Source: Aldersonia kunmingensis (GTDB taxonomy: Bacteria > Actinomycetota > Actinomycetes > Mycobacteriales > Mycobacteriaceae). Taken from it: a stretch of DNA of 64,000 bases. The notes beneath the pieces are model-generated. The model did no database searches. It had not been told where the DNA came from and saw only the letters and a program-made list of their open reading frames with translations. Below are positions 4,613 through 63,703 of this stretch, in pieces; the first letter of the stretch is position 1; each line of letters starts with the position of its first letter. Both the position numbers and the translations under genes were made by a program. Where the stretch lies: the NCBI RefSeq assembly GCF_001646865.1, contig NZ_LRRB01000140.1, positions 1 to 64,000 of the forward strand, written 5' to 3'.

Positions 4613-6160
4613 ATGCGACAGCGCACCGCGGTCGTTGTACTCGCCGCCGGGGCCGGAACCCGAATGCGGTCGAAGACCCCCAAGGTGCTGCATCCTCTCG
4701 CTGGGCGATCGATGCTCGCCCACGCGCTGTACGCGGCAAACGACGTTCACCCCGAACACCTGATCACCGTGGTGGGTCATGACCGGGAGAAGGTGTCCCA
4801 CGCGGTGTCCACGGTGGCGGGCGACCTGGGCCGCAAGATCGACCTGGCGGTCCAGGAGGAACAGCTCGGCACCGGCCACGCCGTGCGCTGTGCGCTCGAC
4901 ATCCTGCCCGCGGATTTCGCCGGCGACGTCCTGGTCACCTCCGCGGACGTGCCGCTGCTCGACGGCCACACACTCGAGGCGCTCGTCGAGGAGCACCGCA
5001 GCTACTCCGACCGCCCCGGTGCCACCGTGCTCACCTTTGTTCCCGCGGATCCGAACGGCTACGGCCGGATCGTCCGCGACGACAACAATCAGGTCGCCGA
5101 GATCGTGGAGCACGCCGACGCAACCCCGGCGCAGGCTTCGATCGGCGAGGTCAACTCCGGTGTCTATATCTTCGACGCGGACCTGTTGCGCGCCGCGATC
5201 CATCAGCTCCGCACCGCGAACGCGCAGCACGAGCTGTACTTGACCGACGTTGTGAAGATCGCGCGTCAGGCCGGTCGCGCGGTGTACGGCGCGCTGCTCG
5301 CCGATTCGACGCGCGTGACCGGCGTCAACGACCGCGTACAGCTGGCCGCCGCGGCTCGCGCACTGAACACCGTCCTGCTGGAACGGCATATGCGGGCCGG
5401 TGTCACCGTGATCGACCCGGGCAGCACCTGGGTGGACGCAACAGTGCAGATCGGCCAGGACGCGCTGCTGCATCCCGGCGTGCAGTTGCTCGGAGCGACG
5501 GTTATCGGCGAGGACGCGGAGATCGGCCCCGACACCACCCTGACCGACGTCACGGTCGGCGCCGGCGCAAGCGTCGTGCGCAGCCACGGCACGCGCGCGG
5601 TCATCGGCGCCGGCGCGACCGTCGGGCCGTTCACCTACCTGCGCCCGGACAGTGAAATCGGTGAGGCAGGCAAGCTCGGCGCGTTCGTGGAGACCAAGAA
5701 CGCGCAGATCGGCGCGCACAGCAAGGTGCCGCACCTGACCTACGTCGGGGACGCGACGATCGGGGAGTACAGCAACATCGGCGCGTCGAGCGTTTTCGTC
5801 AACTACGACGGCGTTAAGAAGAGCCGCACGATCGTCGGTTCGCACGTCCGCACGGGCAGTGACACCATGTTCGTCGCACCGATCGAGGTCGGAGACGGCG
5901 CGTATACCGGCGCCGGAACCGTGTTGCGGAATAATGTTCCACCGGGGGCGCTGGCCGTGTCAGGTGGATCACAGCGCAATATTGAAGGCTGGGTGGAGCG
6001 GAATCGTCCCGACACGGAGTCCGCTCGGGCAGCTGCCCGGGCGCGTGACGGGATAGAGACGGCCGATACCCCTGCGGATGCGGATCCGCAGCCAGGACCG
6101 CCGGCACAAGCTGCGGGCACATCGCACGAAACGCAACAAAAGGATGGCGAAGACCAGTGA
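4613..6160 (+). CDS. glmU: Bifunctional GlmU: glucosamine-1-phosphate acetyltransferase / UDP-GlcNAc pyrophosphorylase
   Basis: GlmU makes UDP-N-acetylglucosamine, the cytoplasmic precursor of peptidoglycan and of the arabinogalactan linker. The 515 residues show an N-terminal uridyltransferase domain starting with [20 protein letters not shown], and a C-terminal left-handed beta-helix made of hexapeptide repeats from about residue 265, including [11 protein letters not shown] and the NYDG segment. A 40-60 residue low-complexity tail rich in Ala, Asp and Gln follows, as is usual in actinobacteria. The ATG at 4613 follows a GAGGGAGC ribosome site. Its stop overlaps the start of prs by 4 bp, so the two are translationally coupled. 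Confidence 0.97.
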
Positions 6161-7137
6161 GCGCGTTCTCAATCGACAACTCGAAGAACCTGATGCTGTT
6201 CTCCGGGCGAGCGCACCCCGAACTGGCCGATCAGGTCGCAAAGGAACTCGACGTTCAGGTCACTCCGCAGACCGCACGCGACTTCGCCAACGGCGAGATC
6301 TTCGTGCGCTTCGAGGAGTCGGTCCGCGGCTGTGACGCCTTCGTCCTGCAGAGCCATCCCGCGCCGCTGAACACCTGGCTGATGGAACAGCTGATCATGA
6401 TCGACGCGCTCAAGCGCGGATCGGCCAAGCGCATCACCGCCGTCCTGCCCTTCTATCCGTACGCGCGCCAGGACAAGAAGCACCGCGGCCGTGAGCCGAT
6501 CTCGGCCCGCCTGGTCGCCGACCTGCTCAAGACCGCGGGCGCGGACCGCATCATCACGGTCGACCTGCACACCGACCAGATCCAGGGCTTCTTCGACGGC
6601 CCGGTCGACCACATGCACGCGCAGGGCCAGCTCGCCCAGCACGTCCGCAACGGCTACGAGCTCGAGAACATCACGGTCGTCTCCCCGGACTCCGGTCGCG
6701 TCCGAGTGGCGGAGAAGTGGGCCGACTCGCTCGACGGCGCGCCGCTGGCGTTCATCCACAAGACCCGCGATCCCCTGGTGCCCAACCAGGTGAAGTCGAA
6801 TCGCGTGGTCGGTGAGGTCGAGGGCCGCACCTGCATCCTGATCGACGACATGATCGACACCGGCGGCACCATCGCCGGCGCGGTCAAGGTGCTCAAGGAA
6901 GCCGGCGCGGGCGACGTCATCATCGCCGCCACCCACGGCGTGCTGAGCGATCCTGCGGCCGAGCGCCTCGCCGCGAGCGGCGCACGCGAGGTCGTCGTGA
7001 CCAACACCCTGCCGATCGACGAGGACAAGAAGTTCCCGCAGCTGACCGTGCTGTCCATCGCGCCGCTGCTCGCTCGCACCATCCGCGAGGTGTTCGAGAA
7101 CGGCTCGGTGACGAGCCTGTTCAACGGCAGCGCCTAG
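6157..7137 (+). CDS. prs: Ribose-phosphate pyrophosphokinase (PRPP synthetase)
   Basis: Transfers pyrophosphate from ATP to ribose-5-phosphate to give PRPP, used for nucleotides, His and Trp, and in these bacteria also for decaprenylphosphoryl-arabinose of the cell wall. The 326-residue protein has the expected two phosphoribosyltransferase-like halves. Visible motifs include [17 protein letters not shown] (metal and ATP region) and the PRPP-binding loop [15 protein letters not shown] near residues 228-242. The GTG start at 6157 overlaps the glmU stop (GTGA), the arrangement seen in mycobacteria. It ends in front of a long hairpin region (7259-7328) that may stop transcription. Confidence 0.97.
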
Positions 7138-52481: not shown

Positions 52482-53744
52482 TCATTCATGTTTCGCAGAG
52501 CTATTATGGCGGACCTGATTGAACGGCACCCCCTTGTCCGCAGCATGTTCGCGCGGCAGACCGAGCACTCGTTCGGCAATGACATTGCGGGCCATCTCAT
52601 TGCTGCCGCCACCGAGCGCCACCGTCTGCCGGGACAGGTACCGCTGCCCCACTCCCAGCAGTTGCTCGTCGCCCTCGACAACACCGAACGGACCCGCGAT
52701 CTCCATCGCGGTGTCGACCTCGAGGAAGACCACATCGGAGTGGAAGAGCCGGATGATCGACCCCGCGGCCGGCGGCAACGAGCCGTCCCGCATGGCCGCG
52801 GAAACGTGCTCGACCATCCGATCGCGCACCATGCGGCGCGCCAGCACCCGGCCGACCTTTTCCTGCACGAGCGGGTCGTCCGCGGCACCGACGGACCTCG
52901 CGAGCGCGATCAGATCCGAAGTCGATTCCTCTGACCGCTCGCGGCCCCGGCCGCTGGCGAACTCCGAGCCCTGCCCGACCGCGCGGCGCTCGTGGAAGAG
53001 CAGCCGCGATGCGACCTCCCAACCGCCATTGACCTCACCGACCACCGCGTCATCGCCGAGCCGGAGTCCGTCGAAGAACTCGGTGCAAAAGTCGTTCGAG
53101 CCGTCGACCTGTTCGATCCGGCGCAACTCCACGCCCGGTGAGTTGATCGGCACCAGGAACATCGTCAGCCCCTCGTGCTTCGGCACCGTGGGATCGGTTC
53201 GCACCAAGAGCAATCCGTAGTCCGCCGCGAACGCACTGGTGCTCCAGGTCTTTGCACCGTTGATCACCCAGGCGTCGCCGTCACGTTCCGCACGGGTGAT
53301 CAGGCCCGCCAGATCCGATCCGCCGCTCGGCTCGGACAGCAACTGGACAAGCACTTCCTCGCCCCGCAGCACGGCCGAAATGCGTTCGCGTTTCTGGTCT
53401 TCGGATCCGGTGTCGAGCAGTGTCGCCGCACAAATGGTGAACGTCGGCACATTCAGAATCAGCGGCATCTCGTACTGGGCCACTTCGATGTCGAAGGCAC
53501 GCTGATACGCCACGTCCAGCCCGAGTCCACCGTATTCGCGTGGGAAGCAGATGCCCGCAAAGCCGCCCGAGTACAGCAACTGCTGAAGTTCACGGGCCCG
53601 CTTCCACGCGGCTTCGTCGCCACGTCCTGCCACGGGCGGATTCTCCGGGTCCAGGCGCGGCATGTTCTCGGCGAGCCACTCGCGTGCCCGAGCCGCGAAC
53701 TCCTGCACCGATTCCGTTGCGGCGTGGGCAGTTGTCTCGATCAT
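52482..53744 (-). CDS. Acyl-CoA dehydrogenase, large subunit type
   Basis: A 420-residue FAD-dependent acyl-CoA dehydrogenase. FAD and substrate segments are VQLLSEPSGGSDLAGLITRA and WVINGAKTWSTSAFAADYGLLL, and the C-terminus has GGGSNEMARNVIAERVLGLPR. The usual C-terminal catalytic Glu position reads Gly here, as in long-chain and steroid-type FadE proteins whose base lies elsewhere. The ATG overlaps the stop of a second, divergent-in-sequence dehydrogenase by 3 bp. Paired genes of this type in steroid catabolism encode heterotetramers, so a two-subunit enzyme is likely. Last gene of the nine-gene operon. Confidence 0.88.
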   Translation of the reverse strand: MIETTAHAATESVQEFAARAREWLAENMPRLDPENPPVAGRGDEAAWKRARELQQLLYSGGFAGICFPREYGGLGLDVAYQRAFDIEVAQYEMPLILNVPTFTICAATLLDTGSEDQKRERISAVLRGEEVLVQLLSEPSGGSDLAGLITRAERDGDAWVINGAKTWSTSAFAADYGLLLVRTDPTVPKHEGLTMFLVPINSPGVELRRIEQVDGSNDFCTEFFDGLRLGDDAVVGEVNGGWEVASRLLFHERRAVGQGSEFASGRGRERSEESTSDLIALARSVGAADDPLVQEKVGRVLARRMVRDRMVEHVSAAMRDGSLPPAAGSIIRLFHSDVVFLEVDTAMEIAGPFGVVEGDEQLLGVGQRYLSRQTVALGGGSNEMARNVIAERVLGLPREHAADKGVPFNQVRHNSSAKHE

Positions 53745-54880
53745 GCGGCCGGAGTCCCCTCTGCTGCGTTGCGCGCAATAATTCGGTGATGCCCGGCCGT
53801 CGAGCCGAACATGTTGCGATACAAGGTGATCCGTCGAAGGTAGAGATGCAGGTCGTGTTCCCACGTGACCCCGATGCCACCGTGCAACTGAATGCACTCC
53901 TGGACCAACTGTCCGGCATGCTCACCGAGGTAGGACTTCGCGGCGCTCACCCAGATCAGCGCGGACGGGTTGCCGGCAACGACCTCATCAACGGCGCCTG
54001 CCGTGATCCCGCGGCAGGCGTGCAGCCACATGGTCATGTCGGCGAGCCGGTGCTTGAGCGCCTGATACGAGGCCAGCGGCCGACCGAAGGTGTACCGCTG
54101 TTCGGTCCACTCGATGGTCAACTTCAGCACGGTGTCGATTGCGCCGACGATCTCGGCGCACTGCAGCAGGTTCGCGATATCGGATTGGCGCTGAATCAGG
54201 GCCGGCGTTTGCGCCGCGGTGCCAACCACCGCTGAGGCAGCAACCACAACGGAATCGAATTCGACTCGTGCGTAATGCTTTACCAGGTCCAGGCTCGGCT
54301 GTGGGCGCGCAGTCACCCCGGCAGAGTCAGCCGGGATGAGGAACTGCCGCACGCCGTCGTCGGTGCGCGCAGTCACCAGCAGGAGATCGGCCTCCGAGCC
54401 TGCTTCGACCCGATCCTTCACGCCGTCGAGGCGATAGCCGTCCGGCGTCTGCGTCGCAACCAGCGTCGGTTCGAGCGGACCGAATTGCCGGCCTGGCTCC
54501 TCCACCGCCCAGCTCGCGACCTTGCTGCCCTGCACCAGGTCGGCGATCGCGTCCGCGTGGTCGTCGCGGTTTTCGGCGTCGACCAATCCCGCGAGCACGA
54601 CGCTCACCGGATGCAGCGGACCGGGAGCAACCGTGGTCCCCATCAGCTCCGCGATCGTGGCGAGATCATGCAGGCCGCTGCCCGACACGCTGCCGCCATC
54701 GAGCTCCTCCGGCACAAGCAGTCCGGCCCAGCCGAGCCCAGCGGCCTGTTCCCACCACGCCGCGTCGTAGGACCGGCCATCCGCGTGGAGCGCACGCTGA
54801 TGACTCACGGTCGCGTTCTTGTCGAGGAATGTCCGTGCCGTCCGCAGGAACAGCTCGGTTTCCGGTGCAGTGTTGTTCAC
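53741..54880 (-). CDS. Acyl-CoA dehydrogenase, partner subunit type
   Basis: A 379-residue acyl-CoA dehydrogenase-fold protein. GLGWAGLLVPEELDGGSVSGSG, RYTFGRPLASYQALKHRLADM and QLHGGIGVTWEHDLHLYLRR are typical. Several FAD-contact regions are weak (the middle beta domain begins ASWAVEEPGRQFG), a feature of the smaller subunit of alpha2beta2 dehydrogenases. Start GTG 54880 overlaps the CMD-like stop by 4 bp and its stop overlaps the next dehydrogenase, so three genes are translationally coupled. The pair probably desaturates a CoA ester made from the oxygenase products (inference). Confidence 0.86.
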   Translation of the reverse strand: MNNTAPETELFLRTARTFLDKNATVSHQRALHADGRSYDAAWWEQAAGLGWAGLLVPEELDGGSVSGSGLHDLATIAELMGTTVAPGPLHPVSVVLAGLVDAENRDDHADAIADLVQGSKVASWAVEEPGRQFGPLEPTLVATQTPDGYRLDGVKDRVEAGSEADLLLVTARTDDGVRQFLIPADSAGVTARPQPSLDLVKHYARVEFDSVVVAASAVVGTAAQTPALIQRQSDIANLLQCAEIVGAIDTVLKLTIEWTEQRYTFGRPLASYQALKHRLADMTMWLHACRGITAGAVDEVVAGNPSALIWVSAAKSYLGEHAGQLVQECIQLHGGIGVTWEHDLHLYLRRITLYRNMFGSTAGHHRIIARNAAEGTPAA

Positions 54881-55416
54881 TCGTCCTCCACGCCGAAGGT
54901 GTTGACCGCCATCGCGAGCAGGGCGTATCCGCCGATCGTGAAGACGAGGTCCATTCGTTGTTTGTCGTCGAAATACTTGCCGAGTTCGTCCCAGACCTCG
55001 GCGGAGATGGTGCTCTGTGTGTCGAGGTCGTCAACGGCAGCGACGACGATCCGGTCGCAGTCGTCTGCGGGTTTCCCGTCGCGAATACCGTCGATATCGG
55101 CATCGGTCAGTCCGACTCGCTTTGCGAGCGGAATGTGATGCGTCCACAGGTATTCGCAGCCCCGACGGTGGACTACCCGCATCAGCGCCACTTCGCGGAT
55201 GCGCGGCGACAGCGCCGACTCCCGCAACAGGTAGGTGTTGAACGGTAGGTACGCATGCGTCAGGTCCGTGTGGCGTACCAGCGTGGACAAGACGTTGCCG
55301 GCATCGGCCGGGTTGGCACGCTCGACGGGGAGCAGTGACGTCAGCGACGAACGGACCTCATCGGTCCATTCGTCGGACGGCAACGGCGCCAACCGCAGCG
55401 GATGTCGGGATGTCAT
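54877..55416 (-). CDS. Carboxymuconolactone decarboxylase-like (AhpD fold) protein
   Basis: A 179-residue all-helical protein of the CMD/AhpD superfamily. The core is LSPRIREVALMRVVHRRGCEYLWTHHIPLAKRVGLTD. Where AhpD has the redox pair C-x-x-C, this protein has E-Y-L-W-T-H-H with a single Cys just before the Glu, so it belongs to the subgroup lacking the peroxidase site. Many such proteins sit in catabolic operons with unknown roles, possibly decarboxylation or hydrolysis. ATG 55416 is 7 bp after the EthD-like stop. Confidence 0.8.
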   Translation of the reverse strand: MTSRHPLRLAPLPSDEWTDEVRSSLTSLLPVERANPADAGNVLSTLVRHTDLTHAYLPFNTYLLRESALSPRIREVALMRVVHRRGCEYLWTHHIPLAKRVGLTDADIDGIRDGKPADDCDRIVVAAVDDLDTQSTISAEVWDELGKYFDDKQRMDLVFTIGGYALLAMAVNTFGVEDE

Positions 55417-55423
55417 CGAAAGG

Positions 55424-55732
55424 TCAGGCCGTCGCCTCGTGGATCAGGCTCAGGTACCGCATTACTGCCGGCGGTTCGGTCCGGACGCCGACAGGCTTGG
55501 ACATCGTGCCGCTGGCGAAGAACGCCTTCAGGGTCGCCTTTGCCGTCTCCACGTCCGCGTCGATCTCGTACAGCGTGATGAAGTTGTCGCCGTCCTGCCA
55601 CCGCCGGGCAGATACGAAGCCATCCAGCTCGAGCATCTCGGGAACGTGGACCTCGTTGTGCCAGCGGTTGTAGTCGTCGACGGTGTCTGCCGAGGCGGGC
55701 CCGCTCTCGACGAACAGAATTGACTTAGCCAT
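55424..55732 (-). CDS. EthD/DUF4286-like dimeric alpha/beta-barrel protein
   Basis: A 102-residue protein with the ferredoxin-like fold of the dimeric alpha+beta barrel superfamily: SILFVESGPAS, YNRWHNEVHVPEMLELDGFVSARRW and NFITLYEIDADVETAKATLKAF. The NEVHVPEM segment is the usual active-site strand-helix in EthD-like proteins. Relatives act as small monooxygenases, cyclases or accessory proteins for oxygenases. ATG 55732 has AGGAG 8 nt upstream; sixth gene of the operon. Confidence 0.75.
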   Translation of the reverse strand: MAKSILFVESGPASADTVDDYNRWHNEVHVPEMLELDGFVSARRWQDGDNFITLYEIDADVETAKATLKAFFASGTMSKPVGVRTEPPAVMRYLSLIHEATA

Positions 55733-55773
55733 GTGTGTACTCCTGATCGATGAAAGAACTTGTGAGAGAGGAA

Positions 55774-56619
55774 CTACTGGATCGGCTCGTCGCCGAGCAC
55801 CGTGGTGCGCAGCATCTCTCGCGGCGAGGTCTCGTCGTACGGTGCGGCGCGGTGCAGCACCCCGCGGTTGTCCCAGATGACGGTGTCGCCCACCGACCAG
55901 TTGTGGCTGTAGACCTGCTCGGCGGTGGTGGCGCGCTTCAGCAGGTCGTCCAGCAGGGCCTGGCCCTCGTCGCGGTCCATGCCGACCACGTAGTGGGCCG
56001 AGGCGCCCAGGACCAACGACTTGCGGCCGGAGCGGTGGCTCCAGATCAGCGGATGCTCGTGGGTGGGGCGGGCTCGCCACTGCGCCAACTGTTCCGGCGT
56101 CGGATCGGGGTTGACCCGGCTCTGCGACGCTTCGAGCGAATGCACGACGCGAAGCGAGGCGAACCGCTCCTTCTCGTCATCGGTGAGTCCGTCGTAGGCG
56201 GCATACGAACTGGCGAACTCGGTCTCACCACCGGAGGTAGCGACCTGGACGGCCGAGAGGACGGTCGCCATCTGCGGGTACGAGTTGTCCGTCGGGGTGC
56301 ATCCGTCGATGTGCCAGTCGAAGGTGGCCTTGAGGTAGGCCGCGGAGGAATTCTTCGACTTGTCCAACGTGACGGGGTAGATACCTGCGACCGGGTGGTG
56401 GCCGTCGGCCGAATGGTCGATCGCGCCGAGTCGACGGCAGAACTCGACCTGATCCGCCGGATCGAAGTTCACAGCGGGGAAGACCAGAACGCCGTTGTCC
56501 TCCAAGGCATTCAAAATGGCTTCCGCTATCGCATCGTCACTGACCATGCGGGAGGGATCGATGCCGACAACCTCGGCACCGACCGTGTCGGTGAGTTTGT
56601 TGATGGTCAGCAGACTCAT
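55774..56619 (-). CDS. TauD/TfdA-family 2-oxoglutarate-dependent dioxygenase
   Basis: A 281-residue non-haem iron dioxygenase. The iron-binding HxD is His103-Ile-Asp105 in FDWHIDGCTP, the distal His is His256 in WDNRGVLHRAAPYD, and the 2-oxoglutarate Arg is Arg267 or Arg271 in SPREMLRTT. It would hydroxylate its substrate at the expense of 2-oxoglutarate and oxygen. Lies 49 bp downstream of the small protein gene in the same unit. A second oxidation chemistry in the same operon as the Rieske system suggests successive oxygenations of one molecule. Confidence 0.9.
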   Translation of the reverse strand: MSLLTINKLTDTVGAEVVGIDPSRMVSDDAIAEAILNALEDNGVLVFPAVNFDPADQVEFCRRLGAIDHSADGHHPVAGIYPVTLDKSKNSSAAYLKATFDWHIDGCTPTDNSYPQMATVLSAVQVATSGGETEFASSYAAYDGLTDDEKERFASLRVVHSLEASQSRVNPDPTPEQLAQWRARPTHEHPLIWSHRSGRKSLVLGASAHYVVGMDRDEGQALLDDLLKRATTAEQVYSHNWSVGDTVIWDNRGVLHRAAPYDETSPREMLRTTVLGDEPIQ

Positions 56620-56668: not shown

Positions 56669-57004
56669 CTAGGGCATCGGCGCGTCGGTGCGGATCATGA
56701 CGGCGTCCGCGCCATCCACCGGGATGGGTTGATGCATGATCTCGACGGCCATCGCGACCAGGACGAGCGAATAGATCAGGTGCAGCAGGTTGAGTGCATC
56801 CTCGGGAAGGTCGTCGAGGTCGAACTTGTCGCAATACTCGATCGCCTCTTCCAGCCGCGGAAAGAAGGCGTCGTAGAACTCCCGCAACTGCGGCTGCGTG
56901 CTGGAAATGCGGGTGTTCCAGCGCTCGGTTTCCGTGGCCAGGCACCAGGTCGGCGCGAACCCCTCGAGATCGGCAAAGGCGCTGGGCAGCATCGTGTCCG
57001 GCAT
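56669..57004 (-). CDS. Small helical protein paired with Rieske oxygenase (copy 1)
   Basis: A 111-residue acidic, probably all-helical soluble protein of a family I cannot name. Its start overlaps the Rieske gene stop by 1 bp. It is clearly homologous to the protein at 62102-62428, also placed right behind a Rieske gene; both share FADLE, WCL-x-TE, a central FYDA and YCDKF-x-LDDLPED-x-LNL-x-HL. It does not resemble the NTF2-like beta subunits of classic ring-hydroxylating dioxygenases. A structural or electron-transfer accessory of the oxygenase is inferred from this conserved pairing. Confidence 0.8.
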   Translation of the reverse strand: MPDTMLPSAFADLEGFAPTWCLATETERWNTRISSTQPQLREFYDAFFPRLEEAIEYCDKFDLDDLPEDALNLLHLIYSLVLVAMAVEIMHQPIPVDGADAVMIRTDAPMP

Positions 57005-58263
57005 TACGGGGCCACCCCCTCGCCGCGCTCGAGCTTGTAGTCGTCGACCCAGTCGACCGCAACCTTGTGCAGGTGGCGCACCAGAATTTCCTGATCGTTG
57101 AGCGGATAGTCATCCACGATGTCGTATTCAAGGGCCGCCTGCGTACCGCCGAGCATGCCGGCGTCCTGCAGCGCGAACTCCTTCAGCACGACGGCAGCGA
57201 CCTCGTGCTCGATGCGCTCGTGCACGGTGCGGGCCGGGTGGAAGAAGGTGTAGGCCTCGAAGCGGTGGGTGTTGTGCGACGTCGGCCAGTACCGGTACAG
57301 CAGGTACCAACCGTGATAGATCAGGATCTCGAGATTCGGGAAGATCTGGAAGTTGCTGATCCCCCAGTTCTCGACGCCGCCCGGATTCACACCCTCCGGT
57401 ATGGGTCCGAGATCGGGCGAGCGCCACGGGCCTACGAGGCCACTCTCGGTAGCCCGCTCGATCGGGTACATGAACTCGGGATCGAGCAGCCATCGACGCG
57501 TGCCCGCGGTCGACACCAGTCGGTGGGGCCCATCGAGTTGGAAATGCGCGCAGGTGAATCCGGCATTCGGCTTGCGGACCGCCGACGGCACCTGCTGACT
57601 GTGCAGCGACGGGACGTGGTAGTACTCCTGGAAGGCGTCGGCGAAGATCTTCCAGTTGCTGTTGTTGTGCGCGATCCACTCGTAGCGTTCGGTCAGCTTG
57701 TCGAACGGGTACTCATCCAAACCCGTGACCATGGGTCCGAGGAACTCGCGCAGCGTCTGCTTCGGCGATTCGTCGAAGTTGACGAACACGAAGCCGTTCC
57801 AGATATCGCAGTGCACCTCGATCAAGCCGTGCGCTGCGAGGTCGAGGTTGAAGTACTCCGACTCGCTCGGGACGTGGATCAGGGTGCCGTCCAGTGCGTA
57901 ACGCCAGCCGCAGCGCGCGCACAGCAGGTCGTCGCGGGCTTCTCTGGCTTCGACGGCGTCGGTCGAGACGAGCTTGTGGCCGCGCTGCCGGCACGTGTTG
58001 TGGAAGGCCCGGATCTGGTTGTCCTGCCCGCGCACCAGGATGAGCGAAGCATCGACGACCTCGATCTCCTTCGTCGCGACGCTGCCGACGTTCGGCACTT
58101 CCTCGACACGCGCGAGGTTCAACCAGGCGCGCTTGAAGATCGCTTCACGCTCGTCTTCGTAGAACTCGGGGGAAATCGAGTCGCGGAAGGAGATCGGGCC
58201 GGTACCCAACTCGGGGTAGTGCTCGGTCCATGACCCCGCCGCCGGCTTAGCTGGTGCCGTCAT
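57004..58263 (-). CDS. Rieske-type oxygenase alpha subunit with altered Rieske ligands
   Basis: A 419-residue ring-hydroxylating-oxygenase alpha-subunit homologue. In the N-terminal Rieske domain the normal C-x-H and C-x-x-H ligands read Cys91-Arg-Gln93 (NTCRQRGHKL) and Cys115-Ala-Arg-Cys118 (LLCARCGWRY), so both histidines are gone; His96 lies nearby. I rechecked these codons on the DNA. The C-terminal catalytic domain keeps the mononuclear iron ligands His216 and His221 (DAFQEYYHVPSLH), bridging Asp209 and Asp367 (FALQDAG). ATG 58263 has AGGAGG upstream. Third gene of the operon, followed by its small partner gene. Confidence 0.88.
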   Translation of the reverse strand: MTAPAKPAAGSWTEHYPELGTGPISFRDSISPEFYEDEREAIFKRAWLNLARVEEVPNVGSVATKEIEVVDASLILVRGQDNQIRAFHNTCRQRGHKLVSTDAVEAREARDDLLCARCGWRYALDGTLIHVPSESEYFNLDLAAHGLIEVHCDIWNGFVFVNFDESPKQTLREFLGPMVTGLDEYPFDKLTERYEWIAHNNSNWKIFADAFQEYYHVPSLHSQQVPSAVRKPNAGFTCAHFQLDGPHRLVSTAGTRRWLLDPEFMYPIERATESGLVGPWRSPDLGPIPEGVNPGGVENWGISNFQIFPNLEILIYHGWYLLYRYWPTSHNTHRFEAYTFFHPARTVHERIEHEVAAVVLKEFALQDAGMLGGTQAALEYDIVDDYPLNDQEILVRHLHKVAVDWVDDYKLERGEGVAP

Positions 58264-58309
58264 GCCAACCTCCTGATGGTCGTCGAATTACATTGGCCTG
58301 CTTGCCCGG

Positions 58310-59056
58310 TCACAGCACCGAACCGCCATTCACGCCCAGCACCTGCCCGGTGATGAAGCTCGCCTCGTCGGAGCACAGGAACCCAACTGCCGCAGCAATA
58401 TCCGCTCCGGTGCCGAGTCGGCCCATCGGAATGGCCTTGGCAATATCCTCATTGGGCGGCAGGTAGCCGGCGGCCTGTCCGGCATGCTGCATCGGCGTCT
58501 CGATACCGGACGGCGGAATGTTGTTCACCGTGATTCCGGCCGTGGCGTACTCACGCGCCAGCGATTTGGTCAACGTGATGACGCCGCCCTTCGAGGCCGC
58601 GTAGTGCGCCGCGAAAGGCGATCCGCGCTGCGCGCTGGACGACGAGATCATCACGATCCGTCCCCAGTTCGCGGCGATCATGTCGGGCAGGGCGACCTGG
58701 CAGCAATGAAAGGTGCCGGTCAGGTTGACATCGATTACGCGCGACCAGGATTCGATCGAGATCTCGGTGAAGGCTGAGTACCCGAACAATCCCGCGCTCG
58801 TCACCAGAATCTGCACGGGGCCGAGTTCGCTGCGCACCTTCGCGAAGGCGCTCTCGACTGCGGTGCGGTCGGTAACGTCGGCGCGCACCGCGAGTGCGGT
58901 TACCCCGTCGGCCCGCAGATCGTCGGTAACCCGTTGTGCTGCTTGCTCATCGAGGTCCAGAACGGCGACCTTGTAGCCCCGCCGACCCAGTTCATGACAG
59001 GTGGCTTCGCCCATTCCGGACGCTCCGCCCGTGACTACCGCGACTCGTGTCGTCAT
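58310..59056 (-). CDS. Short-chain dehydrogenase/reductase
   Basis: A 248-residue classical SDR: cofactor loop VTGGASGMGEATC, NAG-equivalent VTSAGLFGY, catalytic Ser in MISSSSAQRG and YAASK (Tyr, Lys), with the C-terminal ITGQVLGVNGGSVL of the FabG-like group. Likely oxidises an alcohol formed by one of the oxygenases, or a dihydrodiol-type product (inference). ATG 59056 preceded by GGAGCGGAA. Lies 26 bp after the reductase gene. Confidence 0.88.
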   Translation of the reverse strand: MTTRVAVVTGGASGMGEATCHELGRRGYKVAVLDLDEQAAQRVTDDLRADGVTALAVRADVTDRTAVESAFAKVRSELGPVQILVTSAGLFGYSAFTEISIESWSRVIDVNLTGTFHCCQVALPDMIAANWGRIVMISSSSAQRGSPFAAHYAASKGGVITLTKSLAREYATAGITVNNIPPSGIETPMQHAGQAAGYLPPNEDIAKAIPMGRLGTGADIAAAVGFLCSDEASFITGQVLGVNGGSVL

Positions 59057-59082
59057 TTCCGCTCCATCGCTATTGGCTGTGC

Positions 59083-60162
59083 TCACTCGTAAACCACCCG
59101 GACCGTTCGAGTGGTGGGCAAGGCTTGGCAGGTGACGACATAGCCCTCCGCGATCTCGTCGTCGTCGAGTACGTCGTTGTTGAGCAATTGCGCGGCTCCC
59201 TCGGTCACCTGGGCGATGCACGTTCCGCAGGTGCCGGTCTCGCACGAGGACGGCGGACGCATATCAGCCGACCTGGCCATCTGCATCAGCGTGTATCCGG
59301 CGCGGTACGGCAGCGTGACCTTCTGCCGGTCCAGCTCGATCGTCACCTCCTCGGTGACAACCGCGGCTGCCTCCTCCGCGGTGAGCTCCGGCACGGCCGA
59401 CGCGAAACGTTCGACGTGTACCCGTGCGGCCGGAACACCAGCGTTCAGCAGCGCCGCCTCGACGGTCTCCATGAACGGTGCGGGACCGCAGATGTAGAAC
59501 TCGCACTCTCCGGCGCCGGCGAGGAAGGATTCGATGCCCTCCGGGGTGGCGACCCCGTGCGTCTCGTCGAGATGGTGCCGAAGCTCGAATCGGTTGGCGT
59601 GCCGATCGCTCAGGTTGCCGAGCGCGTCCGCGAAGATCACCGAACTCTCGGCCCGGTTCGCGTAGAACAGGCGCGCGCTGCGGGTCGTGTGCCCGAGCAC
59701 CGAGCGCAGCAGCGAGTACACGGGGGTGATTCCGCTGCCGCCGGCGAATGCGACGAACTCGCGATCGGATTCATCGAGCACGAAGCGGCCCTGCGGCGGC
59801 GCTGCATGCAGGCGATCCCCAGGCGCGACAGCGTCGTTGATCCAGTTCGATACAACCCCGTCGCGGTCGCGCTTGATGGTGACCCGAAGGTTCTCACCGG
59901 TCGCGGGCGTGGACGACATCGAGTAGCAGCGCCGGTGTTCAGCGCCATCGATACACACCGACAGCGTGAGGTACTGCCCGGCGTTGTACCGGAACTGCTG
60001 CCGACTCTCCGGCGGAATCTCGAACACGACGGACACGGCTTCCGGGGTCTCCCGGACCACGTCCGTCACCAGCAGTGGGACGAAACCGTCCGGCACTGTG
60101 GCTGTTGCGGCGCTGGGCGCACCGGCCGCGACGGCGGGCGAGGAAGGCGAGGTCTCAGGCAT
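59083..60162 (-). CDS. KshB-like ferredoxin reductase of the Rieske oxygenase system
   Basis: A 359-residue three-domain electron-transfer protein that would move electrons from NAD(P)H through flavin and a plant-type [2Fe-2S] cluster to the Rieske oxygenases. The flavin site RCYSMSSTP lies near residue 80, the nucleotide region AFAGGSGITPVYSLLRSVL near 140 and FYICGPAPFM later, and the C-terminal cluster motif is CETGTCGTC. Layout and sequence resemble KshB and HsaB-type partners in mycobacterial steroid degradation. First gene of the nine-gene operon; ATG 60162 has CAGGAG upstream, and the operator-like dyad lies just beyond. Confidence 0.9.
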   Translation of the reverse strand: MPETSPSSPAVAAGAPSAATATVPDGFVPLLVTDVVRETPEAVSVVFEIPPESRQQFRYNAGQYLTLSVCIDGAEHRRCYSMSSTPATGENLRVTIKRDRDGVVSNWINDAVAPGDRLHAAPPQGRFVLDESDREFVAFAGGSGITPVYSLLRSVLGHTTRSARLFYANRAESSVIFADALGNLSDRHANRFELRHHLDETHGVATPEGIESFLAGAGECEFYICGPAPFMETVEAALLNAGVPAARVHVERFASAVPELTAEEAAAVVTEEVTIELDRQKVTLPYRAGYTLMQMARSADMRPPSSCETGTCGTCIAQVTEGAAQLLNNDVLDDDEIAEGYVVTCQALPTTRTVRVVYE

Positions 60163-60170
60163 CTCCTGAA

Positions 60171-60208
60171 GATTATCAACTACTTGCCATTGATATCAAG
60201 TAGTTGAC
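60171..60208. promoter_or_regulatory. Predicted MarR operator and promoter of the nine-gene operon
   Basis: TCAACTACTTG (60176-60186) and CAAGTAGTTGA (60197-60207) form a perfect 11-bp inverted repeat spaced by 10 bp, with a second dyad TTGATATCAA (60190-60199) inside. On the minus strand a GATAAT box (60178-60173) lies inside the left arm, about 17 bp behind ACTTGA, so a bound repressor would cover the promoter. The CAAGTAGTTGATA-x-TC element recurs before the second Rieske operon (63834-63849; 15 of 16 bases match the left arm). Confidence 0.75.
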
Positions 60209-60241
60209 ATAGAGTTCACAACAAGTGCTGCGCATACAGGT

Positions 60242-60274
60242 CGTCCCGGGACGCAACCCACGCGTCCCGGGACG
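60242..60274. terminator. Paired CGTCCCGGGACG palindromes after marR
   Basis: Two identical self-complementary 12-mers, CGTCCCGGGACG at 60242-60253 and 60263-60274, can form one hairpin of 12 pairs with a 9-nt loop. It lies 27 bp beyond the MarR stop codon and before the nine-gene promoter, so it is a likely terminator for marR. No U-rich tail follows. Confidence 0.55.
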
Positions 60275-60300
60275 AAAGCCCTGATCAATACGGAATCTGC

Positions 60301-60798
60301 CTATAACTCGACGTGGTCGCTGATGACCTCGTGCCCGGTCCCCTTTTCCACCACACGACTGAGGAGATCGCGCAGCGTTTCATGCTCTTCGGGGGTCAGC
60401 ACGCCGAAAACCTGCTCGTGTGCGGCGATGGCATCGCTGACGACGGCCTGGGCGACCTCTTTACCCTCATCAGTCAGGAAAGCCTGCAGGATGCGCCCGT
60501 GCTGCGGATCCTGGCGTCGCTCGACCAGACCGCGCTTTTCCAGCGCGGTCAGCGCGAGCTGAACCCCCTGCGGCGTGATCAGCAGGCGCCGGGCGAGTTC
60601 CGCCCCGGACAGGCCTGGCTCGTTGGTGAGCTGGCGCAGCAAACCGATCTGGGCAGTGCTGACACCGTGCTGCTTCACGGCCTCGTTGACGGTGGTGAGC
60701 GAGAAGTAGAAGGCCTGCTTCAACAGCCACAGTGTGTTCTCGGTCAGTTCCAACCGTTTCTCCTGCCCGCTTTGACCACGGGATTCGCTGCTCGCCAC
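60301..60798 (-). CDS. MarR-family regulator of the oxygenase regulon
   Basis: A 165-residue MarR protein: helical dimer ends, and a winged helix in LSGAELARRLLITPQGVQLALTALEKRGLVERRQDPQHGR. It lies between two catabolic units on the same strand, each headed by the CAAGTAGTTGA element, which makes it the obvious candidate to bind those sites. MarR proteins usually repress and release DNA on binding a phenolic or other small substrate, so induction by the pathway substrate is expected (inference). Confidence 0.85.
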   Translation of the reverse strand: MASSESRGQSGQEKRLELTENTLWLLKQAFYFSLTTVNEAVKQHGVSTAQIGLLRQLTNEPGLSGAELARRLLITPQGVQLALTALEKRGLVERRQDPQHGRILQAFLTDEGKEVAQAVVSDAIAAHEQVFGVLTPEEHETLRDLLSRVVEKGTGHEVISDHVEL

Positions 60799-60820
60799 AT
60801 CTCGACGCTATCGCAAATAA

Positions 60821-60848
60821 AGCCGCCCGCGGTGATCCACGGGCGGCT
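60821..60848 (-). terminator. Rho-independent terminator after the amidohydrolase gene
   Basis: AGCCGCCCG (60821-60829) and CGGGCGGCT (60840-60848) form a perfect 9-bp GC-rich stem with a 10-nt loop. Reading on the minus strand, the stem is followed by TTTATTTGCG, a U-rich tract. It begins 4 bp after the amidohydrolase stop codon and separates that operon from marR. Confidence 0.85.
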
Positions 60849-60851
60849 CTA

Positions 60852-62105
60852 TCAAGCGGCGGGAGACTTGTGAATCCGGCCGTTCTTCATGACGAAGTGC
60901 ACGTCGAGTGTTGTGCTGATGTCCGCCGACGGATCACCGGGTACGGCAATGATGTCAGCCAGGTACCCGGGTGCGAGGCGCCCAAGTTCGTGGTCCACAT
61001 CGACCAGTTCGGCCGCCACCACGGTGGCCGATCGAAGCGCCTGCAGCGGCGTCATGCCGCGTTCCACGAGCGCGACGAGTTCCTTCGCGTTCTGCCCGTG
61101 CGGCACGGCCGGCGCATCGGTTCCGCATGCGATGCGGACACCCGCTGCAATCGCCTTGGGCAGCATGGCTTTTGCCCGAGGAAAGACTTCTTCAGCCTTC
61201 GCCCGCAGCTCCGGCGCGATCCGGTCGATGGCCATCGCATCCGTCAGGTAGGTCGTCGAGACCAGGAACGTGCCATGGTCGACCATCATCTGGATCGTCT
61301 CGTCGGTTGCCAGGAAGCCGTGCTCGATGCAGTCGATACCGGCGCGAATACACGCCTGAATCGCCTTGTCGCCGACCGCATGTGCGGCCACCTTCACTCC
61401 GGCCCGATGCGCCTCGTCGGCGATCGCCTCGAACTCGGCATCGGAGTACTGCTGGGCGCCCGGCGACGTGCTGTGCGACATGACGCCACCCGAAGCGGAG
61501 ACCTTGATCAGCTTGGCGCCGTGGCGGACCTGATAGCGGACGCAGGCGATCACGTCCGGTACGCCGTTCGCGATTCCCTCGGCAACCGACAGCGGCATGA
61601 CGCCGGGCGCCAGACGCTGGAACACGGTCGGATCCAGGTGCCCGCCGTACGGCGTCACGGCGTGACCGGCCGGATGGATGCGGGGACCGTCGTGCCAGCC
61701 CTGATCGATGGCGCGCATCAGTGCGACATCCAGCAGGTAGCCACCGGTCTTCACCATGAGCCCGAGGTTGCGCACCGTGGTGAAACCGGCATCGAGCGTG
61801 GTCTTTGCGTTGACCGCGCCGCGCAGCGTCCGGTAGGCCGGATCATCCTGCACACCGTGCATCGGGCTGGGCAGGCCTTCCGGCCCGCCCGGTCCGCCGA
61901 TGAGCAGGTTGAGCTCCATGTCCATCAGGCCGGGGAGCAACGTGGAGTCGCCGAGGTCGATGACCGTGGCGCCTTCGGGCAGCGGGCCGTCGGGATCAAT
62001 CGCGACGATCTGTGTTCCTTCTACGACGATGGTCGCCGGCGAATGCACTTTGCCCGCAACAACATCGACCCACCGCGCTGCGCGGAGGACTGTCGGGCCG
62101 GTCAC
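60852..62105 (-). CDS. Amidohydrolase family protein lacking the HxH motif
   Basis: A 417-residue TIM-barrel metallo-hydrolase-like protein, close in layout to imidazolonepropionase/Xaa-Pro-dipeptidase-like amidohydrolases. The bridging Lys201 (GAKLIKVSASGG), His242 (AAHAVGDKAI), His262 (CIEHGF) and Asp330 (CGTDAP) are all in place, but the first metal motif, normally D-x-H-x-H, reads D-M-E-L-N (Glu64, Asn66). It may therefore bind one metal or use Glu as a ligand. Role probably hydrolysis of an amide, lactam or lactone. The GTG start at 62105 overlaps the small-protein stop by 4 bp. Confidence 0.85.
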   Translation of the reverse strand: MTGPTVLRAARWVDVVAGKVHSPATIVVEGTQIVAIDPDGPLPEGATVIDLGDSTLLPGLMDMELNLLIGGPGGPEGLPSPMHGVQDDPAYRTLRGAVNAKTTLDAGFTTVRNLGLMVKTGGYLLDVALMRAIDQGWHDGPRIHPAGHAVTPYGGHLDPTVFQRLAPGVMPLSVAEGIANGVPDVIACVRYQVRHGAKLIKVSASGGVMSHSTSPGAQQYSDAEFEAIADEAHRAGVKVAAHAVGDKAIQACIRAGIDCIEHGFLATDETIQMMVDHGTFLVSTTYLTDAMAIDRIAPELRAKAEEVFPRAKAMLPKAIAAGVRIACGTDAPAVPHGQNAKELVALVERGMTPLQALRSATVVAAELVDVDHELGRLAPGYLADIIAVPGDPSADISTTLDVHFVMKNGRIHKSPAA

Positions 62106-62428
62106 GGAATGGGCTCGATCACGCAGTCCAGGGTCGAAGCGCCGGCATCGGGAACGCGGGGTTGTTTCCAGCACTCGGCCGAAAACGACACAGTGATCAT
62201 CGAATACAGCAGGTGCATCAGGTTCAGCACGTCCTCTGGCAAGTCGTCGAGCGGGAACTTGTCACAGTAGGAGATCGCTTCTTCCGCACGCGGCGTGATG
62301 GCGTCGTAGAAGGCCTGGATGTCGCGCATCTTGCCGTTCGTGCGCTTGGCGTAACGCTCTGCCTCGGTGGGCAGGCACCACTCCGCGTACGCCTCGAGAT
62401 CGGCGAATTCAGCTGGTAGCAAAGACAT
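62102..62428 (-). CDS. Small helical protein paired with Rieske oxygenase (copy 2)
   Basis: A 108-residue homologue of the protein at 56669-57004, roughly half identical over the core: FADLEAYAEWCLPTEAERY, FYDAITPRAEEAISYCDKF and LDDLPEDVLNLMHLLYS. Both end with a variable Pro-containing tail. It starts 6 bp after the Rieske stop and overlaps the amidohydrolase start. Acidic, no signal peptide, no cofactor motif apart from conserved Cys, Tyr and His. Function unknown; conservation of the pairing with a Rieske gene is the key observation. Confidence 0.8.
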   Translation of the reverse strand: MSLLPAEFADLEAYAEWCLPTEAERYAKRTNGKMRDIQAFYDAITPRAEEAISYCDKFPLDDLPEDVLNLMHLLYSMITVSFSAECWKQPRVPDAGASTLDCVIEPIP

Positions 62429-62434
62429 CTCAGC

Positions 62435-63703
62435 TCACGCTCCCTGCGCCGAACGCTCGTAGTCGGCAATCCACTTCTTGGTTTCATCGTGCAGGTGACG
62501 GATGAGAATCTCCTGGTCACAGAGCAGGAACTCGTCGACCGCGCGCGATTCGAGCATCGACTGCGTCGCCTCGAGCGTGTTGGCATCCTGCAGGCCGAAT
62601 TCCTTGAACGACGCCGCGGCGAGTTCCTGGGCGATGCGCTCGCGCGGACTGCGCGGCGCCGGGAAGTAGACGTTCCCCTCGAAGATGTGCGTGTTATGCG
62701 AGGTCGGCCAGTAGTGGTATGTGAGGTACCAGCCCTGGCTCCAGCACAGGATGGTGAAGTTGGGGAACAGCTGGAACGAATCCAGGCCCCACGGATCGCA
62801 TTTCGCGGGATTCAGTCCGATGGGCATTTCGCCGAGATCCTGCTTGTCCCAAGGACCGAACAGTCCGCTCTGGCAGATGTCCTCGATCGGCTTGCGCATC
62901 TCGGCAGCCATCTCCCACGCACGCACACCGGACGTGCTCACGAGCCGATGCGGACCCTCGAGCTGGTAATGCGGAGCCTCGAATCCCGCCTGCGCGGCCG
63001 CCTTCGAATATGCCGCCGGCGACTGGTTCGCATGCAAAACGGGTGCGTGATAGAACTCCTGGAACGCATCCATGTAGAGCTTCCAGTTGGCCTTCACCTC
63101 GGAGCGGTAGTAGAACCGCGACGTCATCTTCTCGAACGGATAACCCTCGAGATTGGTGATCATCGGGCCGAGAAATTCGCGCAGCGGCTGCTCCGGCTCG
63201 CCCTTCGCCAGGTTCACGAAGATGAAGCCGGCCCACACCTCGCAGTGCACCGACACCAGGCCGTACTTGCTCTTGTCGAGGTCGAAGAACTCACCTTCCT
63301 GCTGCACGAAGTTGAGGTTGCCGTCGAGGTCGTAGCGCCAGGCGTGGTACTTGCAGGTGAACTGGCGGCACGTGCCGCTGGTTTCCTCCTGCGGCATGTC
63401 GTTCCACACCAGCTTGTTTCCGCGGTGCCGGCAGATGTTGTGGTACGCCTTGACCTCGCCGTCCCCGGTTTTCGTCAGGATGAGCGATGTGTTGGCAGCC
63501 GCGAGCTCCTTGGTGAAGTAACTTCCCTTTTTCGGAAGTTGTTCTACGCGACCGACATTGAGCCAGGCGCGCTTGAAGATCGCTTTGCGCTCGAGCTCCC
63601 AGATCTCGGGACTAATGGAATCTTCATAGGAAACCGGTGCGGTTCCCAGCTCCGGATAGTGTTCCGTCCAACTGCCTTCCGGCGGTTTGGGGAAGCGAGC
63701 CAT
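62435..63703 (-). CDS. Rieske-type oxygenase alpha subunit (canonical ligands)
   Basis: A 422-residue Rieske non-haem iron oxygenase. The cluster ligands are normal: Cys91-x-His93 (NICRHRGNKL) and Cys117-x-x-His120 (FTCKYHAWRY). The catalytic iron site is His219 and His224 in DAFQEFYHAPVLH with Asp212, and Asp373 in FGLQDAN. N- and C-terminal sequences run parallel to the other Rieske protein (SWTEHYPELGT, FKRAWLN, PTSHNTH), so the two are paralogues. ATG 63703 has GAGGAG 8 nt upstream. First gene of a three-gene operon with the small protein and the amidohydrolase. Confidence 0.93.
   Translation of the reverse strand: MARFPKPPEGSWTEHYPELGTAPVSYEDSISPEIWELERKAIFKRAWLNVGRVEQLPKKGSYFTKELAAANTSLILTKTGDGEVKAYHNICRHRGNKLVWNDMPQEETSGTCRQFTCKYHAWRYDLDGNLNFVQQEGEFFDLDKSKYGLVSVHCEVWAGFIFVNLAKGEPEQPLREFLGPMITNLEGYPFEKMTSRFYYRSEVKANWKLYMDAFQEFYHAPVLHANQSPAAYSKAAAQAGFEAPHYQLEGPHRLVSTSGVRAWEMAAEMRKPIEDICQSGLFGPWDKQDLGEMPIGLNPAKCDPWGLDSFQLFPNFTILCWSQGWYLTYHYWPTSHNTHIFEGNVYFPAPRSPRERIAQELAAASFKEFGLQDANTLEATQSMLESRAVDEFLLCDQEILIRHLHDETKKWIADYERSAQGA

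Follow-up and report, generated by a model that had tools for sequence, protein, structure and literature searches.

The locus described here raises two questions: what is the function of the small acidic proteins encoded directly behind Rieske oxygenase genes, and how might an oxygenase work whose Rieske ligands have been replaced? It lies in a stretch of 64,000 nucleotides from Aldersonia kunmingensis (assembly GCF_001646865.1, contig NZ_LRRB01000140.1, positions 1 to 64,000 of the forward strand; the whole stretch is termed the window herein) and consists of two cassettes, each with a gene for a Rieske oxygenase alpha subunit (alpha 1 and alpha 2) followed by a gene for a small protein (small 1 and small 2; Table 1). 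An earlier note, made from the sequence alone, had given the positions and order of these genes, and inspection of the sequence confirmed them together with both junctions: alpha 1 and small 1 have one base in common, within a TAATG at 57004, and alpha 2 is separated from small 2 by a 6-bp gap (TGA GCTGAG ATG, 62437-62426). The note had also taken the small proteins for homologues and the two-gene module for a duplication, and both views held up. Small 1 and small 2 are 52% identical over 100 amino acids (aa; E value of 2e-36) and share the motif YCDKF-x-LDDLPED-x-LNL-x-HL; the two alphas, both with matches to the domains PF00355 and PF00848, are 52% identical over 411 aa and form neighbouring clades in a whole-protein tree. 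A third cassette of an alpha and a small-protein gene is present on another contig (C121) of the same genome.

The small-protein gene is tied to Rieske alphas far beyond this locus. It had been left open whether its homologues sit mostly away from Rieske genes, and they do not: 173 of 176 distinct small proteins start between −32 and +41 bp after the stop codon of a Rieske alpha gene on the same strand. One of the remaining three lies just before a Rieske alpha (Cupriavidus, locus L068), and two are apart from it. The first of these (genome G241) has an alpha gene (L203, 1636-2919) followed by an amidohydrolase gene, with the small gene (L047, 7094-7420) about 9 kb away on the opposite strand, so that the split pair is still found within one region of about 10 kb. 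The second is located on a lin-gene plasmid (pISP4 of Sphingomonas sp. MM-1, L061), on which copies of IS6100 separate the small gene from a truncated alpha gene. On this plasmid (4937-8333), linC and an EthD gene precede the small-protein gene, with the IS6100 copies and the truncated Rieske alpha nearby, and plasmids of other lin-type strains carry related small genes; this arrangement suggests that linC was once part of such an oxygenase cluster. Counted from the alphas, 184 of the 189 that are of the cassette type have a small gene; the five exceptions are four alphas at which the locus is cut off and one weak outlier. The other Rieske alphas that we examined in the Aldersonia genome have no small gene.

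Within the order, 41 of 298 genomes encode the small protein; of 396 genomes drawn from the phylum, 13 do. The family, which was also sought with conserved stretches of a seven-row alignment, occurs in Actinomycetota and in Alpha-, Beta-, and Gammaproteobacteria, with varied gene neighbours, and it is carried by plasmids of Sphingobium, Sphingomonas, Novosphingobium, Acinetobacter, Cupriavidus, Variovorax, Burkholderia, Azospirillum, Paroceanicella, and Rhodococcus, where the genes, if annotated, are called hypothetical. In the whole-protein alpha tree, the main-type actinobacterial cassette alphas group together (support of 99/98), and the deeper cassette alphas are unresolved, with long branches.

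Small 1 (P0001) and small 2 (P0003) have isoelectric points of 4.06 and 4.32, and members of the family have a median length of 109 aa and a median isoelectric point of 4.3, in agreement with the earlier description of acidic proteins of about 110 residues. Six residues are invariant (L4, P5, W17, R25, R29, and L70) and E85 is nearly so, and the family has no invariant or near-invariant Cys or His, the best being C18 and C55 at 57% each. The predicted helical nature was supported by an AlphaFold2 model, which consists of four helices (residues 6-17, 22-31, 34-55, and 65-87) without strands (mean predicted local distance difference test score [pLDDT] of 92) and ends in an extended tail of lower certainty; the conserved residues of this tail (Q89, P90, D94, E105, and P106) would suit a docking element. 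To establish whether this is a known domain, we compared the protein with several collections. Neither small protein matched Pfam or NCBIfam, 22 diverse homologues gave only single chance-level Pfam matches to unrelated families, searches against PHROGs and PDB sequences yielded nothing beyond chance, and PADLOC and viral contigs were likewise empty. Fold comparison gave no convincing match (best Foldseek E value of 4.7; best VIA-align Z score of 4.7, which is low for helical proteins), which is no proof of a new fold. In the open literature, to which the search was confined (subscription papers were outside its scope), the protein is nowhere described. Identity with IacB of the indole-acetate pathway was considered and found unsupported: iacB adjoins iacA, and iacD follows iacC, a comparison made by gene order alone. 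PdmAB, a phenylurea N-demethylase, was considered as a further candidate. Because of the four-helix model, the lack of a family match, and the absence of invariant Cys and His residues, the small protein is, as far as the model can tell, neither a beta subunit of the NTF2-like type, with its alpha+beta cone fold, nor an obvious redox carrier.

An unnamed, non-NTF2-like family tied to Rieske alphas with very few exceptions is thus supported, and the earlier suggestion of a putative new accessory or subunit class for Rieske oxygenases fits the evidence, but its premise of two ordinary Rieske oxygenases had to be given up for alpha 1. In alpha 2 the Rieske ligands are canonical (C91-R-H93 … C117-K-Y-H120) and the catalytic iron motif is complete (E216, H219, H224, and D373). 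At the corresponding Rieske positions, alpha 1 has C91-R-Q93 … C115-A-R-C118, that is, both His ligands are gone, replaced by Gln and Cys, and its catalytic iron motif is kept (E213, H216, H221, and D367). The alpha 1 of the sister species (CRQ…CPRC) has lost the His ligands as well. Sequencing error or a frameshift was ruled out as the cause by the intact reading frame, the same change in the sister species, and strong selection elsewhere in the gene. The ligands of alpha 1 are canonical in most mycobacteria and in Nocardia; a C-H-C-C set is found in Gordonia rhizosphera, Mycolicibacterium frederiksbergense, Mycolicibacterium sp. P9-22, and two further genomes, a C-R-C-C set in two genomes, and CPRC…CKRC in two more (L225, open reading frame at 1456-2703 on the plus strand; L226, minus strand). 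The spacing of the latter resembles that of a rubredoxin or zinc ribbon. In all 11 remodelled alpha 1 proteins, Cys occupies the first, third, and fourth ligand positions, and the catalytic iron motif is retained. A grouping of the remodelled genes as one clade, based on five rows and the whole protein, was dropped; the backbone of a larger tree of the catalytic part is unresolved, and anything from one to several origins is possible.

A separate clade of alphas has the segment that binds the Rieske cluster deleted (Rhodococcus globerulus, Williamsia faeni, the sister species, and genome G289). These alphas keep the catalytic motif and the small gene, and the two members that were scanned had no match to PF00355. 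A probable further alpha of this type was seen in another genome (G769:C13:6408-7298), with a small gene at 6022-6342. Throughout, alphas without a canonical Rieske centre are accompanied by a small protein with all signature residues.

Comparison of the window with the sister species showed where selection acts on alpha 1. The catalytic domain is nearly unchanged (217 of 221 residues identical; nonsynonymous substitution rate [dN] of 0.008, ratio to the synonymous rate [dN/dS] of 0.01), whereas the Rieske domain has a dN of about 0.15 (0.150, or 0.144 with slightly different bounds) and a dN/dS of 0.26. The resulting Rieske-to-catalytic dN ratio of 19 exceeds that of all 598 pairs of canonical alpha 1 genes with comparable dS (median of 1.25, maximum of 9.4), pairs that are not independent of each other; other remodelled pairs have ratios of about 3 to 8. 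The emphasis is opposite in alpha 2, with 83 of 89 residues identical in the Rieske domain and 194 of 224 in the catalytic domain. Small 1 has a dN/dS of 0.08. From this dN/dS pattern it follows that the catalytic half of alpha 1 and small 1 are kept by selection and that the Rieske half is largely released. Across the family, distances between small proteins track those of the alpha catalytic domain (partial r of 0.56 to 0.86) and not those of the Rieske domain (0.11 to 0.21), in correlations that carry no phylogenetic correction.

On balance, we consider it probable from these sequence data that the alphas belong to a distinct class of Rieske oxygenases, which the small protein serves as a dedicated partner without a catalytic role and in which the iron of alpha 1 would be reduced from outside. 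Translation of the small protein from the alpha stop codon would ensure that both are made together. The small protein would most likely attach to its cognate alpha, at the catalytic domain or the trimer, and stabilise or complete the oligomer, thereby playing the part that the NTF2-like beta subunit has in other oxygenases. Alpha 1 and alpha 2 would be paralogues that act in a single catabolic cluster and draw on the same reductase; here and in several mycobacterial lines, the mononuclear iron domain of alpha 1 would still work, although a canonical Rieske centre is lacking. In Rieske oxygenases, the iron of each alpha receives electrons from the Rieske centre of the adjacent alpha, about 12 Å away (PMC12445004). 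An alpha that has no centre would work only with electrons from a neighbour or another protein. Since the reductase of the cluster has no Rieske domain according to the domain scan and alpha 2 is encoded in the cluster, the simplest source would be a mixed oligomer, in which an adjacent alpha 2 passes on electrons from its Rieske centre. Alpha3-alpha'3 assemblies are established among Rieske oxygenases (PMC12445004). Alpha 1 regularly occurs in one cluster with a canonical alpha 2, and in the 11 remodelled cases an alpha 2 is present in the same genome, about 4 to 10 kb away where contigs allow. The mixed oligomer itself is a guess from this co-occurrence. Tentatively, we put forward the idea that two paralogues are assembled into mixed oligomers by a new type of helical partner, and that in these oligomers the iron of a Rieske-less or converted alpha (the natural ligand forms being 1His/3Cys, Cys3, and CxxC…CxxC) is active on the electrons of the other alpha.

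Several points weigh against the reading as a dedicated partner with outside reduction. The three Cys residues kept in all remodelled alpha 1 proteins may indicate a remodelled metal site that needs no donor, and no canonical alpha was found within the 9 to 15 kb examined around the Rieske-deleted alphas. The co-divergence of small protein and alpha is partly shared ancestry, because the two genes are adjacent. A model of an alpha 2-small 2 fusion, with the in-frame TGA read through, reached a pLDDT of 47, too low to read an interface. On Acinetobacter and Variovorax plasmids (L063, 8354-8845; L064, 8442-8885), a gene for an NTF2/SnoaL-like protein follows the alpha and small genes, and with both present the small protein need not replace a beta subunit.

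Its strict association with Rieske alphas could also mean that the small protein inserts the Rieske cluster or docks a ferredoxin or reductase at the Rieske domain. This is highly improbable, because the protein is kept intact beside alphas with replaced ligands or a deleted Rieske segment and tracks the catalytic domain, its correlation with Rieske-domain divergence being as low as given above; it also lacks a conserved set of Cys or His ligands. What remains, as judged from sequence comparison, is probably a role at the catalytic domain or trimer, either as a structural partner or as a chaperone of its assembly. A chaperone that helps its specific alpha to fold or assemble and stays outside the finished enzyme would agree with a small, acidic, helical, and translationally coupled protein, and the genomic facts are the same as for a subunit; we nevertheless regard it as rather unlikely, since a stoichiometric partner would explain somewhat better why the small proteins are paired one to one with the paralogues and why they diverge together with the catalytic domain.

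For alpha 1, the main alternative to outside reduction is that its redox centre has been remodelled and that it works alone, with C-H-C-C forming a low-potential 1His/3Cys [2Fe-2S] cluster and CPRC…CKRC a rubredoxin-like Fe(Cys)4 or zinc site. The Cys residues at positions 1, 3, and 4 speak for such a centre, but the rest of the Rieske domain is fast-evolving in the remodelled lines, and we know of no role in oxygenases for a low-potential or mononuclear centre at the Rieske site. Comparable changes have been engineered in a Sulfolobus Rieske-type ferredoxin, in which H64C gave a 1His/3Cys low-potential [2Fe-2S] cluster and H44I/K45C/H64C a mononuclear Fe(Cys)4 site (PMC2946596). These resemble the natural ligand sets described here; they are, however, laboratory ferredoxin variants and not oxygenase subunits, and a change of His44 to Cys blocked cluster assembly (PMC2946596), which is only suggestive for the window, where the first His is replaced by a different residue, Gln. 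Taken together, a remodelled centre is possible and has to be kept in view, with less weight than reduction from outside. Alternatively, alpha 1 of Aldersonia might be a decaying or non-catalytic pseudoenzyme that serves as a scaffold for alpha 2. The loss of the Rieske ligands and the relaxed Rieske domain would be expected of it, but the near identity of the catalytic domain in the two species and the retention of all iron ligands, in the other remodelled lines too, make this improbable.

Known systems share some of these features. The alpha3-beta3 enzymes, such as naphthalene and biphenyl dioxygenase, likewise combine an alpha of Rieske and catalytic domains with a second small non-catalytic gene beside it; unlike their beta subunit, the protein described here is predicted to be all-helical, is about 110 aa long, and has no beta-family match, and some of its loci carry an NTF2-like gene in addition. 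Among curated families and solved structures, the closest to the alphas are CntA (carnitine), Stc2 (stachydrine), and GbcA (glycine betaine), of which CntA forms a homotrimer of the alpha3 type (PMC12445004); the literature compared mentions no small helical partner for these enzymes. NdmA and NdmB of caffeine degradation form an alpha3-alpha'3 assembly of paralogous alphas like that proposed here, and in NdmCDE the alpha NdmC has no Rieske centre, needs the non-catalytic partner NdmE, and obtains electrons through a reductase with its own Rieske domain (PMC10380055). In contrast to the present locus, NdmE belongs to the GST family and is unrelated to the small protein, and the Rieske domain is N-terminal in the reductase NdmD and missing from the reductase here. 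PpoC1 and PpoC19 of the Phenylobacterium pyrazon oxygenase are also reported as alphas without the Rieske consensus, but their beta subunit of 21.5 kDa is encoded elsewhere, and no small helical partner is reported (PMC7907043).

The cassettes are part of a catabolic cluster in which every gene from alpha 2 through the acyl-CoA dehydrogenases lies on the minus strand (Table 1). The reductase is the likely electron donor of the oxygenase or oxygenases, as judged from its predicted domains. In actinobacteria, an amidohydrolase gene is conserved behind most cassettes of the alpha 2 and third types. Many genomes of Mycobacterium and Mycolicibacterium share the gene order from alpha 2 to the TauD-type gene, as do Gordonia rhizosphera and Aldersonia, whereas Nocardia has it rearranged. 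The closest named relative, Aldersonia sp. NBC_00410 (L111), is 72% identical in small 2 and 86 to 95% identical in the remaining genes compared, among them alpha 1, alpha 2, and small 1. Elsewhere in the A. kunmingensis genome, contig C47 (L202, 764-2032) contains a 422-aa frame that begins like a lipoprotein and carries three Rieske domains in tandem, all of which show C[PT]HxGC…CPCHG.

Table 1. Features of the oxygenase cluster in the window and, in the last row, alphas of the Rieske-deleted clade at other loci
Feature	Position	Strand	Remarks
Alpha 2, Rieske oxygenase alpha subunit	62435..63703	minus	PF00355 and PF00848; canonical ligands
Small 2, acidic helical protein, 108 aa	62102..62428	minus	6 bp behind alpha 2
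Amidohydrolase (PF01979)	60852..62105	minus	likely GTG start overlaps the small 2 stop (GTGA), by inspection
MarR-type regulator	60301..60798	minus	
Reductase with flavin adenine dinucleotide, nicotinamide adenine dinucleotide, and C-terminal plant-type [2Fe-2S] domains	59083..60162	minus	domain scan
Short-chain dehydrogenase	58310..59053	minus	
Alpha 1, Rieske oxygenase alpha paralogue	57004..58263	minus	PF00355 and PF00848; Rieske ligands altered
Alpha 1, first Rieske ligand loop	57976..57993	minus	CRQRGH in place of CRHRGN
Alpha 1, second Rieske ligand loop	57904..57921	minus	CARCGW in place of C-x2-H
Small 1, acidic protein, 111 aa	56669..57004	minus	same family as small 2; 1-bp overlap with the alpha 1 stop
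TauD/TfdA-type dioxygenase	55774..56619	minus	directly behind small 1; syntenic across the family
Small conserved protein without Pfam match	55424..55735	minus	position in gene order conserved
Carboxymuconolactone-decarboxylase family protein	54877..55416	minus	
Two acyl-CoA dehydrogenase family proteins	52482..54880	minus	end of cluster
Alphas of the Rieske-deleted clade	L196 5282-6583; L141 4825-5952; L151 4745-5974; L201 10533-12026		small gene kept

The electron link between a Rieske centre and a catalytic iron is the defining feature of Rieske oxygenases, and the best reading of our data is a putative class in which one of the alphas needs no Rieske centre of its own. This points to a type of multi-part oxygenase that has been overlooked. 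A widespread, unnamed partner gene would be omitted when these alphas are expressed elsewhere, and this could explain missing activity. The alphas form a natural series that leads from C-H-C-H through C-H-C-C and CxxC…CxxC to loss of the whole segment, while strong selection acts on the catalytic domain, and this series makes it testable whether an oxygenase alpha can run on the electrons of its neighbour and what a remodelled Rieske site binds.

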